Part shown: piece after piece, positions 7,532 through 27,400 of the stretch
Position numbering within the stretch: position 1 is the stretch's first letter
Layout of the letters: every line of letters begins with the position of its first letter
Origin: Clonostachys chloroleuca
Lineage: Eukaryota > Ascomycota > Sordariomycetes > Hypocreales > Bionectriaceae
Length of the DNA: 64,000 nucleotides
Assembly (NCBI GenBank): GCA_037952775.1
Contig: JBANAY010000003.1
Coordinates: 11,966,001 to 12,030,000 of the forward strand
Reading direction: 5' to 3'
The notes under the pieces: model-generated
Told to the model about the DNA's origin: nothing
Databases searched by the model: none
What the model saw: only the letters and a program-made list of their open reading frames with translations
Translations under genes and position numbers: made by a program

Positions 7532-9624
7532 ATGTTGGCTTCGCGATTTTCCAGAGCTGTAAGTCCTCTATCCTCCTTGCCGAGCAGGTGGATGAATTAG
7601 TTGCTAACATGAGAATATAGCTTCCCCGAGCGACCCCCATCACCGCCCGCTCCGCAGCTTTCGCCAGAGCTCCTCTGGCATCCAGATTCGCTCGCTATGA
7701 GTCGACAGCTGCCGATGGCGACAAGGTGCAGGGTGCCGTGATCGGTATTGATCTGGGTACCACCAACTCTGCCGTTGCCATCATGGAGGGCAAGACTCCC
7801 AAGATCATTGAGAACTCAGAAGGTGCACGCACCACCCCCTCAGTCGTCGCTTTCGCTGAGGATGGTGAGCGACTGGTCGGTGTCGCCGCCAAGCGACAGG
7901 CTGTTGTTAACCCTGAGAACACTCTCTTCGCCACGAAGCGTTTAATCGGTCGCAAGTTCACCGACGCTGAGGTTCAGCGTGATATCAAGGAGGTCCCCTA
8001 CAAGATCGTCCAGCACACCAACGGCGATGCCTGGGTATCTGCCCGTGACCAAAAATACTCTCCTTCCCAAATCGGTGGATTCGTCCTCAACAAAATGAAG
8101 GAGACTGCTGAGGCCTACCTCTCCAAGCCTGTCAAGAACGTTGTTGTCACTGTCCCTGCCTACTTCAACGACTCTCAGCGCCAGAGCACCAAGGATGCTG
8201 GTCAAATTGCTGGCCTGAACGTTCTCCGTGTCGTTAACGAGCCTACCGCCGCCGCTCTGGCCTATGGTCTTGAGAAGGAGGCTGACCGCATTGTCGCTGT
8301 CTACGATCTCGGTGGTGGTACTTTCGATATCTCCATCCTTGAGATCCAGAACGGTGTCTTCGAGGTCAAGGCTACCAACGGTGACACACACCTTGGAGGA
8401 GAAGATTTTGACATCCACTTGGTCCGCCACATCGTCCAAGACTTCAAGAAGACCTCCGGACTTGACCTCTCCGGCGACCGCATGGCTATCCAGCGTATCC
8501 GTGAGGCCGCTGAGAAGGCCAAGATCGAGCTGTCTTCTTCTCTCCAGACTGACATCAACCTGCCCTTCATCACTGCTGATGCTTCCGGCCCTAAGCACAT
8601 CAACGTCAAGCTCACCCGTTCTCAGCTGGAGAAGATGGTTGACCCTCTTATCACCCGCACCATTGAGCCCGTCCGCAAGGCTCTGAAGGATGCCAACCTC
8701 CAGGCCAAGGAGATCCAGGAGGTTATCCTCGTTGGTGGTATGACCCGTATGCCCAAGGTCGCCGAGTCCGTCAAGAGCATCTTCGGCCGTGATCCCGCCA
8801 AGTCTGTCAACCCTGACGAGGCTGTTGCTATTGGTGCTGCCATCCAGGGTGCTGTTCTCTCCGGTGAGGTCAAGGACCTCCTTCTGCTCGATGTCACTCC
8901 CCTCTCTCTGGGTATTGAGACACTGGGTGGTGTCTTCACCCGTCTCATCAACCGCAACACCACCATCCCCACCAAGAAGTCTCAGGTCTTCTCGACTGCT
9001 GCCGATTTCCAGACTGCCGTCGAGATCAAGGTCTACCAGGGTGAGCGTGAGCTCGTAAAGGATAACAAGCTCCTCGGAAACTTCCAGCTTGTTGGTATCC
9101 CACCTGCTCACCGTGGTGTTCCTCAGGTCGAGGTCACCTTCGACATCGATGCTGACTCCATTGTCCACGTCCACGCCAAGGACAAGTCCACCAACAAGGA
9201 CCAGTCTATTACCATTGCCTCTGGCTCTGGTCTCTCTGACTCTGAGATCCAACAGATGGTTGAGGACTCTGAGAAGTACGCTGAGGCTGACAAAGACCGC
9301 AAGTCTGCTATCGAGGCTGCCAACCGTGCTGACAGCGTTCTCAACGACACTGAGCGTGCCTTGAACGAGTACTCTGACAAGCTCGACAAGACCGAGGCCG
9401 ACGGTATCAAGGAGAAGATCACCGCCCTGCGTGAGTTTATCGCCACCAGCCAGTCTGGTGAGGGTACCGCCACCGCCGAGGAGATCAAGGAGAAGACCGA
9501 CGAGCTCCAGGTCGCCAGCTTGAACCTCTTCGACAAGATGCACAAGGCCCGCAACGAGAGCAACAACGCTGAGCAGCAGTCCACCCCCAACGAGGGTGAG
9601 AAGAAGGATGAGTCCAAGCCTTAA
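7532..9624 (+). CDS. SSC1: mitochondrial Hsp70 chaperone (2 exons)
   Basis: The exons are 7532-7558 (nine codons) and 7621-9624, giving 676 aa. The intron starts GTAAGT and ends ATATAG. The N-terminus [19 protein letters not shown] is basic and lacks acids, a good mitochondrial presequence. The ATPase domain shows [18 protein letters not shown] and GGMTRMPKV. The substrate-binding domain follows and the tail is [11 protein letters not shown], without the EEVD of cytosolic Hsp70 or an HDEL signal. The protein is expected to drive matrix protein import (in the TIM23 motor with Tim44 and a GrpE-type exchange factor) and folding, and possibly Fe-S assembly. Codon choice is strongly biased to C-ending codons, typical of high expression. 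Confidence 0.97.
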
Positions 9625-10365
9625 GATTCCTCATAATCTATAAAGCTAAGATCAAAACCTTTCGAAAAATAAAATCACAAAAATATCCATCGGTCTGTGA
9701 GGACCTGATCTGGATATCATAGTGGCCGTCGGCAAACAGCCTTTGTAATAATTATGTATTCTTACCTCCGCCTTCAGCCGCTTTGCCATTTTACGCTTAT
9801 GTAACCTTGTTTCAATACTATAGTTGGCGGGACGGCGTTGGAGCATCAAAACTTTGTTATGGAATCTTCTCACGTATCATGATTTAATGGTCTGGGACCA
9901 GGTATTGGGGAGTGTTTGGCTTGTCTGTAACAGAAAAGAAAAGCCCTATATGGGCGACTTAGAATTTAGCACACATCCCCTCTCATCAAACGTCCTCATC
10001 ATAAACGCACCCTCCAGTGAATGTGAACTCAAATTGCAACATAATTCGGGCCGAGCCTCAATTTAAAACGAGTCGACCCGAAAAGCTCCCATCCGATTAC
10101 GCTCGAGTCTAACAATGATACCCCGCCATGCATTGATTCCATTGTCACCCATTCTTTCGTACTGTGTCCCTGATGACTCAGCTAACCTGTGCACAGGATA
10201 GCTGAGTCAGCAGTCAGCGCAAGGGAAGTCTTGTATATATCGACAACATTGCCGTATCATGTGTCGGCGATTAAACGAATATCTTAGTGGAGCAAACACA
10301 AAGTTTTGATGGAAAAGACACTGTGGCATCATTATTTTATTTAATTTTAATCTAACGGGCCAAAG
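9625..10365. other. convergent spacer between SSC1 and SRP68, holding one palindromic repeat
   Basis: This holds the 3' ends of two convergent genes. The only structured element I see is the palindrome at 10163-10218, listed separately. The rest is AT-rich without coding signal. Confidence 0.5.
10163..10218. repeat. palindromic repeat, copy 1
   Basis: This copy of 56 bases matches 12564-12619 at 52 positions. Its core is a near-perfect inverted repeat: CTGATGACTCAGCTA on the left, TAGCTGAGTCAGCAG on the right, and a perfect CCTGTGCACAGG palindrome at the centre. Each arm carries TGACTCA, the consensus for Gcn4/CPC1-type bZIP proteins. It lies about 150 bases beyond the stop codon of SRP68. 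Confidence 0.9.
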
Positions 10366-12342
10366 TTACGACCGGCCGAATCCAAACCATCCCTTCTTGG
10401 CAGGCTGTGGCTCCGCTGGCTTGTTAGGAGCGGGAGCAGCCTGAGCAGGAGTGGCGGCAGCTGCTTGGGTCGTCTTGCCCGGATATTCGATGTAATTCCA
10501 TGCAACGTCCAGGAAGATGGGCTTGACGGGGATTGCCGCTTTCTTGGGTGGGAATTCGACAATGCTTGACAAATTGATACCACCGCTGGGATATTCGTGG
10601 AGGCGCTCTATAAGAGGGGCGGTGGGCGAGTCCTTGGAGTTCTCCTTTCGGAGGTTCTCAATGTGGACAATGGCACGATGGCGTTGGAGTTCGCCAGTAA
10701 GGAGTTCTATGAGAAACGCGATATCGTCGTTTGAGAGGTCAACGTGGAGCGGTGCGGAATCGTCAGAATCCGTTAACCCGGCGCCTTCCCCGGCTGCATC
10801 CTTGCTTAGGTTGAGTGCGTGCTGGATAAGAGCTAGCGCGTTGGACACGTTGCCAATGATGGCGTGCGAGCGAGCTACTGCGAGTGAACTGTTGGGAAGC
10901 GGGTGGATTAGTATGCTATATCATTCGATGGGGAAATTATGTATTACTCACGTGAGGGCTTGGAAGTACTTGACCGAGACATCCAGCTTAGTAGCAAGAC
11001 CAACGTCAGCGGCAACACCAGGGAGTTCCCTGATGGTCTGCAGGTTTTGTAGAGTTCCATCGTAGAGGGCCGCCTTTTCCTTGAGCTTGGCAAGCTTCCC
11101 GCTTGACGGCAGTTCCCTCGATCCGTCAGCCGCGGATTGATCCTTGAGCTGTGTTCTCCGCCGGTGCTTGGAAAGGCTGTACTCTTCCGTTGCGCCGTCG
11201 TGAGGCCCGGTCAGCACTCTGTTTCGCCCAATTCTCCAGCTAATCATTTCGTAATTGACGGCAGTGCGAGTAATTTGGAGGCTCTGCATTCGGGGATCCC
11301 CCTGGCTTACACCCTCTCCCCGCAACTCATCAATGGCTGTCTTTGTCGCATCAACTGCATCTTGTGTCGCCGTAAGGATTTTGTCGTAAGCTGCGGCCAC
11401 TTCGCCGGGGTTGCTCTGATCCAGGTCCTCATATGTCTCCGCCAAGACTGATTTGGCACTTTGAACTGCACCCCACGCTGTGGAAATCTGAGAGTCTTCG
11501 ATTGTCACCTCGCGTGATCGCCACGTGAGCGTTCTAGGAGCACCGCCAACCTCGGGAACCCCCTTTTCGGTCTCCACGTCATCCTCGAGTGCCTTGGGGT
11601 TGATTTTGTTGATGTCAGCTACCAGAGCTTCGTCTGATGTAGGAAACTTCTTTTTCGAAATTGCCGGAATCGCGACTGTTCGCGGAATGTTTAGGCGATA
11701 GGCAGCAAACCGAATTGAGGGGTCGATGATTTCCGAGATTAAGTCTTTGTAGATGTCATCTTGAGCCTTTGCGCCCAAGGCGCTGTAAATGACCCGGACG
11801 GTAGAGAAGCTCTCTAGACAAGGCTCCCATGCCTTTTTCTCAAAATTGATTGTGCCATGCATCATAGCAGCATATCCCTTAACCTCGAGAAGATCGGTAG
11901 CAGAACCCGTTTCGGAGAGTGCCTCGACGAGATTGTCCGCATTTTGCGCCGCCTTGCGGAGTCTAGATACGATATGCTTTCGTGTGCTTCGCACAAGGCC
12001 CTTCTGATCGTTTGTATGGGAAGCCTTCATGCTCATAGCTTGAGCCCAGGCATGTTCGCTGGTAAGTAGGGCAAGGTAGATGTATCTATGAAGCAAAATG
12101 TTAGCAAGAAGTAATTGAGACATGTGCAAATTTGGACCAAGAGCAGCGCACCCATCATTTTGCGTAATCTCCTCGGAGGTGATCTTGGCCTTGTTAGAGA
12201 ACTTCCCGCGGTTCCTTGTCGCAATACCAAGCTTCTGTCGTGATTTAAGAAGTCGCCGAGCCAGCTGGGACTGGTATGTCGAGTAGTCGCCGTCGAGGAG
12301 TGCCTTGTCCCGGCCCTGGATAATGAAGCTCGTAATCTCCAT
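10366..12342 (-). CDS. SRP68: signal recognition particle subunit SRP68 (3 exons)
   Basis: The exons are 12342-12152, 12085-10952 and 10888-10366, giving 615 aa. The start MEITSFIIQGRDKALL matches the family's N-terminal pattern; the frame is open further upstream but only with a TTG. Intron 1 (66 bases) is a multiple of three and stop-free, so an unspliced reading also stays open. Removing it gives QNDGYIYLALLTSEHAWAQAM, a typical SRP68 stretch. Intron 2 has a TACTAAT branch site. The N-terminal half is the RNA-binding, TPR-like helical domain. The C-terminal part should bind SRP72. The protein belongs to the cytosolic ribonucleoprotein that targets secretory ribosomes to the ER. The very end is Ala/Pro-rich followed by KKGWFGFGRS. 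Confidence 0.93.
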
Positions 12343-12563
12343 GCTGCGCGAGTACAGACGCAGCAAGATCAATGTTGTATTGTGGCGATGTGGTCTCGTG
12401 GTAGCTAGGCTAAATCAACCACCCTGCAAGTCGGGCTACAACCATCTTGAATTTTCCCCTCCACAAACGGCTAAGCCACGGTAGAATCAAGCGACACCCC
12501 ACTAAACCCTCACATCCCACCTAAAGCACCTACGCCATCAGCAAGAGCATCCCGCTACCTCAT

Positions 12564-12619
12564 TGTGTTCCTGATGACTCAGCTAACCTGTGCACAGATT
12601 AGCTGAGTCATCAGTCAGC
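12564..12619. repeat. palindromic repeat, copy 2
   Basis: This is the partner of 10163-10218. Here the 15-base arms CTGATGACTCAGCTA and TAGCTGAGTCATCAG are perfectly complementary around a 14-base centre containing TGTGCACA. It lies about 220 bases upstream of the SRP68 start, so the two copies bracket that gene in the same orientation. Confidence 0.9.
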
Positions 12620-24416: not shown

Positions 24417-27400
24417 ATGATGGCCGCCCCAGCTGGCCCTCCCCCCACAGGCCAGACAAAGAGTACTCTTTTCTTGAAGCTCTCAGCATCGGGCCTACAA
24501 GCGAGTTGTCCCTCGTATCCCAAGAGAAACTTGGCCTTTCACCAACTCCCAAATCTCCTGCTAAGACCGTGAGGTCACCACCTCTACCTCCTTTGCCCTC
24601 TCATCCCACCCCCAGTCCCGTCGGATCGGACTTCAACGTTACCACACCGACCAAATCCGAGCTTGCCAGCCCCAAGCAAAATCTGGCGACTCCTCGGCCA
24701 ACCGGGCATCACTCTTTGTTCCCACATACTAATACTCACGGCAAGAACGTCGGCGAAGTCAAAGGCGCCAGCACCAGCAAAGGCGCCAGCACCAGCAAAG
24801 GCGCCAACACCAGCAAAGGCGACAGTACCATCAACAGTGTTAAGCCTATCACTGAGACCGCTGCCATGGCTCCTTCCATCAAGGCTCAGGCGCAATGCCT
24901 CGAGTCCTGCAGCAAAGTCACCAAGGCCGGTGACAGAATTTCTGTTCGAATGCTCGAGTACCTCACATCGATTAAGCAGACTCACATGCCCCATGGGCTC
25001 GACGATCTTGCACACGGCTTCCTCTCGACATGCCAAGTTCTTTTAACCATCGAGGCTGGCCTGGAAGAATGCACACGTACACATCAATTCTTCCCCGGAG
25101 AGCTCCTTGCAGAGTTGGACAAGAAGTTCCGCGTGTGCTTCGCTGATTTCCAGGTCTTGGAGAACATGCTCTCGAGAGTCCTCGAGTCGGAGCGTAAGAG
25201 TCACGGCGCGATGGGCAAGATGAAGCGTGGATTGAGAAACCTGTTTGGAGATACAGATTTCAGCAAGATTTCCTTGGCGCTTGAGCAAACGAGAGAGAGC
25301 CTGAGGGTCAGCGCTCTGATGTTCCAGTGGAGCCTAGGCGATGACAAGATCGAGAGCGGAGCTGGCATTGGCTACACTGGTCTTGCAGCTGCGTTAGATA
25401 GACTGGACCAGAAGAGATCGAGCACTCGCTCAAGATCTGAGACGAATGGCTCGCACCATAACCTGCCTGCTCTTCGTCAACAAGAGCAGCCTCCGCTGCC
25501 TCCTATCCCTGCCTTGCAGTGGGCCGAGCGTTCAACCTCCCTCCAGAATGATAACATGATGTCGTCCGACATTCGATCACCAATCAGTGATATGCGCCAG
25601 TGGAGCGCAACGGCCAGTTCCATTCATTCTGGCGACCGCAATAACCATCAAGCCGCCTTTGATCGTCTCAGTTCTTTCGACGAGACGATGTCGCACCATA
25701 CCGGAAGCGACTCGGCTGTCAATGACGCTATCAACGAGGAACTTGCTACCCTCGACTTGGGCTCAGACAAGGTCGTCCGGTTAAAGACTGACCCTTTCAC
25801 GATGCCTCGATGGAATCCTCGTGCTAGCACAGGAAGCACGGATGGCGCTACATTGAAGAGTGCCCTCACCTCCGCGATCCGTGCCAGGAACCACAAGCTC
25901 GTCGAGCAACTCCTGGATAGAGGTGCTCCCGCCAACAGCCCTGATATTCACGCCCTCATCGAAGCTGTCAAGGTGCAGGATGTCGAAAGCGTTCGCCTGC
26001 TTCTCCTATTCGGAGCGGATCCTAACGAAACCGACCGAGAGGGTATGACTCCTCTGGCCCTTGCCGTTGAGAGGACACTGCTGGGCGCCGCGGTGACCCT
26101 GCTCAAGTACGGAGCGGACCCTAACATGAAGGCTGGCATGGATCAGGACAGCCCCGTCGCTCGTGCGATCAAGAGCAACAAAGTCAGCCTTGCTCATTTG
26201 CTGCTAATGTACGGTGGCGATGTCACCCAAATGAACTCGGAGGGCAACACAATGCTGATAAGCGCGGTCAACAAGAAGACGCCTCGCCAATTCATTGCAC
26301 TCCTCTTGGGATACGGGGCAAACCCTAACGAGAAGAGCCGAGAGGGGAAGACGGTGCTCTTCGAGGCCATTACAAGCGCTCGCGACGACATCGTCTCTTG
26401 TCTCCTGGAGAATAAGGCTAATCCCAACCTGCCAGGTCCCAAGCACATGTTGTGGCCTGCCACCTACCAGTCTCCTTGCCTCCAACTGTTGTTGAAACAT
26501 GGCGCTGATTACAAAAAGGCTCCTGGTATTATGGAGCTCGCAGCTAGTGTCAATAACATCGAGTCGGTTCGCATCCTGCTCAAGGCCGGGGTTGACCCCA
26601 ACGCAAAGAAGGATGGAGTTTATACTCCTCTCTGTACTTCTATCCGAGACAACCGTCCCGATATCTTCCACCTGCTTCTGAATAGCGGTGCAGACCCCAA
26701 CACACCAGCATCTGAATACCCCTGCTTCAAGTGCATTACACACAATCGGCTTCAGTTCTTGCCGGCCTTGGTTGCGGCAGGCGGAAACCTAAACAACCCG
26801 AAGGGTATCTTGGAGACTGCTGTTGCTCAAGATTACATGGAAGCTGTTCTTTGGCTTTTGGACCAGGGCTTGGACCCGAATGAGCGAAACGCCAAGGGCC
26901 ATTCACCCCTGACGACGGCCATTCGCGAAAACCGTATTGAACTCGTTGATCTCTTGATCATGCGTGGCGCCGACCCCAACAAGCGGGGCGAGGACTGGCC
27001 AGTCTGCATGGCTGTCCGAAACCCACATATTTTAAAGCGCGTTCTTAACGTCCTGGCTGAGCCCCGCGCTTTCAAGGGTGTTATTGAGCGGGCCGTAGCT
27101 GCCGACCAGCTTGAGTCAGTGAAGCTGCTCCTTGCTGCCGGCGTTTCAGTTGAAGATAAGAATGGTGGTGTCTTCTCTCCTCTTACCACTGCTTTGCGCG
27201 AAAATCGCCGAGAAATTGTCAGATTCCTCGTTGACCCCAATGGCGGTGGTGCCGATGTTAATGCCCCTGGTGAACATCTGCCTGTTGTTAAGGCTCTTCG
27301 ACGATTCCATGGCGAGGATACGGCTATGCTTGAAGTGCTTTTGGAGCATGGTGCTGACCCTAACAAGATGTACCGCGGATGGAACGGTATCTTCCAGGCC

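Follow-up and report, generated by a model that had tools for sequence, protein, structure and literature searches.

Short palindromes with nearly perfect arms are expected to be unstable. MITEs, or non-autonomous DNA transposons, are short, non-coding, inverted-repeat sequences dispersed between genes, and the usual MITEs are longer than the 42-bp unit described here. Mitochondrial repetitive hairpin elements have been described as short, palindromic, dispersed and mainly intergenic (PMC2800124, PMC7218506), and the double-hairpin elements of Allomyces are reportedly without flanking duplications (PMC2800124). As for binding sites, Yap1 is reported to be able to recognise TGACTAA (PMC7261193). 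The 64-kb window (the whole stretch of Clonostachys chloroleuca DNA that was analysed, 64,000 nucleotides) carries two palindromes around the gene SRP68, arranged as follows.

7726..9624, plus strand: Hsp70 open reading frame, presumably SSB-like as read from its sequence; adjoins copy 1, outside the element
10163..10218, plus strand: first copy of the 56-bp unit, i.e. the palindrome with 8 bp on its left and 6 bp on its right that are common to both window copies
10171..10212, no strand: copy 1 of the 42-bp palindrome, with the 36-mer TGACTCA...TGAGTCA at 10174-10209
10366..12342, minus strand: SRP68 gene with introns, stop at 10366 and ATG at 12342; adjoins both copies, outside the element
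12564..12619, plus strand: second copy of the 56-bp unit, 52/56 identical to the first
12572..12613, no strand: copy 2 of the 42-bp palindrome, with the 36-mer at 12575-12610, upstream of SRP68

The two 56-bp repeats (10163-10218 and 12564-12619), which a sequence-only reading had pointed out, are real, with 52 of 56 positions (93%) identical, and were also reported as inverted repeats. That reading was right in giving CCTGTGCACAGG as the centre of copy 1, in finding TGACTCA, read inwards, in each arm of both copies, and in placing copy 1 past the stop and copy 2 upstream of the start of SRP68, the identity of which is borne out by PF16969 and by the names of related proteins. Two of its details need adjustment: the arms of copy 2 do pair perfectly, over the outer 16 bases per arm instead of 15, and the same orientation of the two copies holds for their short common flanks, which run the same way, and means little for a palindrome. 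Hsp70 (+) and SRP68 (-) are convergent genes with copy 1 between them, its 36-mer lying 156 bp beyond the SRP68 stop, and the 36-mer of copy 2 is about 230 bp upstream of the SRP68 ATG. When palindromes were searched in the window with one mismatch allowed and a loop of at most 8, these two ranked best, with arms of 22 and 18 bases and a runner-up of 13; the longest arms in six first-order Markov shuffles of the window were 10–13 bases. The window also contains a tandem repeat with an 18-bp period at 24742-24831 (four overlapping 36-mers).

The window palindromes belong to a nine-copy family of near-identical 42-bp palindromes between genes. They are located on the contigs C1 (6.5 Mb), C3 (37.5 Mb) and C4 (15.3 Mb), and are given here together with the results of a Pfam search of ten neighbouring open frames of the family loci.

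C1:1527991, L029: family copy; neighbour MCM
C3:11976182, L030: family copy, copy 1 of the window
C3:11978583, L031: family copy, copy 2 of the window
C3:12080899, L024: family copy; neighbours gamma-tubulin complex C-terminus and a second frame without Pfam match
C3:12087209, L025: family copy; neighbours PBP-like protein and GTPase with AARP2CN domain
C3:36233770, L026: family copy; neighbour G-patch
C4:10045552, L027: family copy; neighbour ankyrin
C4:10106776, L028: family copy; neighbours APH and a second frame without Pfam match
C4:12792219, L032: family copy; sole Pfam match of the neighbour Suf, below the curated cut-off

All nine copies are nuclear, because contigs of 6.5-37 Mb carry them. 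The 20-bp core CTAACCTGYGCRCAGGTTAG, searched with up to three mismatches in the 59.4-Mb genome, matched 12 places, five without mismatch, four with one, none with two and three with three (control, three), and the family is set at nine since nine places have 0–1 mismatches and none has two. The three places with three mismatches are chance-like; two of them, viewed with their flanks, are without TGASTCA arms, and the third is C3:11987511. Across the whole genome, the 36-mer with up to three mismatches was found at six places (control, 0), and a search allowing one mismatch in the inner arm GASTCAKCTAWCCTGYG gave 20 matches, namely the 18 family arms and two elsewhere, each carrying one mismatch (control, three). 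Moreover, CTAACCTG and CAGGTTAG at a distance of 0–30 bp occur genome-wide in five family copies alone (control, 0). The pattern of TGACTCAGC then TGASTCA, with the heptamers 6–36 bp apart, is blind to L024, L025, L026 and L028 and yielded 11 rows (control, one), nine of which come from five family copies, all at 22 bp, and the two others at 11 and 19 bp. The extended motif TGCTGASTCAGC, which we take to be Maf-element-like, gave 27 strand-rows genome-wide (some places counted on both strands) versus 6 for the reversed control, including five family arms and a remnant in the L024 duplicate. The single motif also occurs outside the family, whereas the composite, within the reach of the patterns used, is confined to it. 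With seven further copies elsewhere, adjoining other genes, the SRP68-specific role that had been suggested for the bracketing pair is not supported; SRP68 is bracketed because two copies with a common 56-bp unit happen to lie close together.

A viral or bacterial source was also considered and rejected, as the bare 20-mer occurs in two IMG/VR and three bacterial stretches, all without TGASTCA arms, at three places in each of the two IMG/VR stretches. A 160-residue piece of SRP68 gave 10 pattern matches in viral contigs, none of which was confirmed. In the IMG/VR contigs (L064:13953-14582 and L065:872-1501), CTAACCTGCGCGCAGGTTAG is present three times each within about 650 bp, and each occurrence adjoins a similar stretch with CACTTGAC or GTCAAGTG and has no AP-1 arms; these may be repeats of a phage operator or promoter.

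The common unit of about 42 bp is made up of two arms, TG(C/A)TGASTCA-K-CTAACCTGYG, joined tail to tail. From the heptamer to the centre, 12 of the 18 positions are invariant in all 18 arms and six vary. Two of these six lie in the heptamer, at its middle (C 13, G 5) and sixth (C 15, A 3) positions, and one directly follows it (G 13, T 5); of the remaining three, two are inner bases (A 15, T 3; C 17, T 1) and one is the penultimate base at the centre (T 12, C 6). The middle base and the base following the heptamer are perfectly linked: C goes with G in 13 of the 18 arms and G with T in the other 5. Outward of the heptamer, conservation fades within three bases in the nine copies. TGASTCA is the heptamer in 15 of the 18 arms and TGACTAA in the other three, which may represent one event. 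The heptamers are inverted in six copies and direct repeats in L024, L026 and L027, where two stem pairs are broken and both heptamers are still readable in the duplex. The number of symmetric positions out of 22 is 19 in L029, 20 in L030, 21 in L031, 17 in L024, 21 in L025, 15 in L026, 17 in L027, 18 in L028 and 20 in L032, or 168 of 198 overall. With nine copies and few substitution events, statements about constraint are weak.

No copy is plausibly coding, because open frames across the 36-mer are absent in six of nine copies and, in the other three, are short minus-strand frames (26, 41 and 65 residues). The copies plausibly lie in non-coding sequence, which may include introns or untranslated regions. 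From their translations, we take neighbour genes to be SPC98, BMS1, MCM2, RRP5 and ASK1, and no common position relative to genes was seen among the nine copies. Beside the ankyrin frame, about 130 bp from the palindrome, L027:1663-1820 is a separate repeat with 23 other places in the genome (79–100% identity); the stretch of C3 from 13.07 to 14.80 Mb holds 12 of these.

Pairwise comparison of the nine 3-kb loci showed that L024 and L026 have 130 bp in common and L030 and L031 56 bp, followed by stretches of 48–52 bp in L024/L027, L026/L027, L029/L031 and L028/L032, and of at most 46 bp in the remaining pairs. Over the 42 bp, the distances are 1–5 in the group L029-L030-L031-L032 and 1–5 in the group L024-L025-L026-L027, and L028 has 6–9 differences from every other copy. 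A one-arm A-to-T change is common to L029, L030 and L032, which are on three contigs and differ from one another at 1–2 of 42 positions. L024 and L026 have 11 differences in 130 aligned positions, none within the 36-mer, and L030 and L031 have two differences inside it. Furthermore, four of the nine copies lie within 111.1 kb of C3, as happened in 5 of 2,000,000 random placements over C1, C3 and C4; if the window pair is treated as one, three of eight copies are clustered (P 5.9e-4, or 3.1e-5 with a further close pair), all these tests being chosen post hoc with the data already seen. The one-sided substitution on three contigs, the subfamilies and the local cluster appear to be signs of copying as a unit.

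The account we favour, at slightly better than even chances, is a nine-copy, ultra-short (about 42 bp) nuclear palindromic family that is copied as a unit and is also a paired bZIP-type site, with no special tie to SRP68. The whole unit would have been copied to new non-coding places, as is suggested by the one-sided substitutions common to copies, the subfamilies, the clusters, the near-absence of half-units and the mostly unrelated flanks. It may have spread by DNA repair or template switching at hairpin-prone sequence, or by ectopic gene conversion, and such repair-type copying would be preferred to cut-and-paste transposition because there is no constant target-site duplication. Each copy would be a composite duplex site of two AP-1/Yap1-type heptamers 22 bp apart around the conserved 20-bp palindrome; a bZIP dimer could bind the heptamers, and this putative binding might help to keep the arms intact. 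The intact copies would also fit a conserved site that has not moved recently.

A target-site duplication of constant length was not found in the nine copies with symmetric boundaries, 20 offsets and lengths of 2–10. The best score (5/9) belongs to a 2-mer, the GC that adjoins the heptamer on its outer side and is part of the motif anyway, the next (3/9) to a 3-mer inside the heptamer, and the other offsets and lengths scored 0–1. The earlier suggestion of a dispersed miniature palindrome is upheld in part: it is favoured by the spread of nine copies over three contigs, by their mostly unrelated flanks and by signs of common descent, and the missing constant duplication speaks against it. A model in which TGACTCA is the duplicated target of a 22-bp insert has its appeal in the direct-repeat heptamers, exact in L027 and with one mismatch in L024 and L026. 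It was rejected, since the 7-mer duplication around the insert is exact in one of nine copies (L027) and the heptamers are inverted in six; it is also disfavoured by the linkage of the middle base with the following base, which is expected where the heptamer belongs to the element. A circle junction or paired transposon ends were discarded as well, the free inner arms not being above control. In the own genome, a search for empty paralogues of the L027 and L028 surroundings gave, over the site, matches to palindrome copies alone.

Among the alternatives, the one that survives best, and that we consider rather unlikely, is a composite regulatory element in which CTAACCTGYGCRCAGGTTAG is occupied by another factor with a bZIP dimer (Gcn4/CPC1- or Yap1-like) on either side, the copies being selected, immobile enhancers or boundaries. 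It would account for TGASTCA or TGACTAA in all 18 arms even where hairpin pairing is lost, for the constant heptamer gap of 22 bp, for the absence of degraded core copies with two mismatches and for the 36-mer being free of all 11 differences between L024 and L026. However, the placement relative to genes varies, the neighbours form no evident regulon, the half-units that an evolving binding site should leave are all but missing, and the one-sided substitution found on three contigs speaks for copying.

It is unlikely that the copies are remnants of a larger decayed transposon, of which the palindromic part is best preserved. The 130 bp common to L024 and L026 fits this idea, as does the tandem second copy of a longer unit, without palindrome, in L024; however, the longer unit is present at at least three places (the query's own included, palindrome matches aside), the other seven copies have none of it past about 48 bp, and partnerless inner arms are not above control. 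No larger or autonomous relative was seen in the own genome with the inner arms at up to one mismatch (two outside the family, control three). The longer unit, some 200–400 bp, is in tandem at L024:1350-2010 (C3 near 12.081 Mb), where one of the two copies lacks the palindrome, and recurs 24 Mb away at L026:1380-1600, with at least three places genome-wide, the query's own included. In the duplicate without palindrome, AAAGGATAGC is directly followed by TGACTCAGCAACA, and the other copy has 29 more bases, these 29 bp being the stretch between direct TGACT repeats. This paralogue fits an empty site as well as a hairpin-driven deletion between short direct repeats, and decides neither because both predict the same product.

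A transcribed hairpin, acting as an RNA processing signal or small-RNA precursor, is quite improbable. Single-strand folding with DNA parameters, run on five of the nine copies, is strong (z between -3.6 and -9.1), but three of nine copies, two of them relatives (L024 and L026), have both linked variable stem pairs broken, one has them doubly changed, and symmetry is limited to 168/198 arm positions, so the transcript hairpin proposed earlier is disfavoured. Rfam gave three matches on the nine loci at E ≤1, of which the tRNA in L026 alone reaches the gathering score, mir-3473 on the L025 palindrome scoring 42.2 versus 71.8 bits; nothing reached it in the 64-kb window, and no family relevant to the palindrome did so in loci or window. 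A chance repeat or an assembly artefact is very improbable, given nine places in differing contexts and controls of 0 to 3.

Returning to the favoured account, nine nuclear copies that seem to have multiplied as whole units would be a tractable case for the spread of very short elements and for the ready-made seeding of binding sites. It is directly testable, since the database includes proteins from four more Clonostachys species, whose genomes should offer orthologous places. More tentatively, and at well under even chances, the family may be the nuclear equivalent of the ultra-short mobile palindromes of mitochondria, 42 bp long, protein-free, spreading whole and without target duplication, and with paired putative bZIP sites; if this is true, each new copy seeds a ready-made transcription-factor site of fixed spacing between genes.

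Compared with known systems, the family is like MITEs in being short, non-coding, inverted-repeat and between genes, and unlike them in having no constant target-site duplication, internal part or longer partner seen in its own genome. The GC-flanked form of its heptamer is, we assume, similar to Maf elements. Its arms match the consensus TGASTCA of AP-1, Gcn4-CPC1 and Yap1 response elements in 15 of 18 cases, the rest being TGACTAA, described as recognised by Yap1 (PMC7261193). Unlike those elements, the family pairs its heptamers 22 bp apart around a 20-bp palindrome and is apparently copied as a unit. The closest kind found in print is the mitochondrial repetitive hairpin elements (PMC2800124, PMC7218506), and the Allomyces double-hairpin elements, yeast GC clusters, Neurospora palindromes and sponge RHE are described there, like the family, as short dispersed palindromes. 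The family shares with the mitochondrial hairpin elements the form of a short dispersed palindrome with mostly unrelated flanks. In one open-access library, titles and abstract openings among the matches listed named no nuclear equivalent of the 42-bp palindrome. Mitochondrial hairpin elements sit in mitochondria, whereas the Clonostachys copies are nuclear, amount to just nine and carry a bZIP-type motif in each arm, and the best reading of the unit is a nuclear ultra-short, low-copy palindrome that doubles as a putative paired bZIP-type site.
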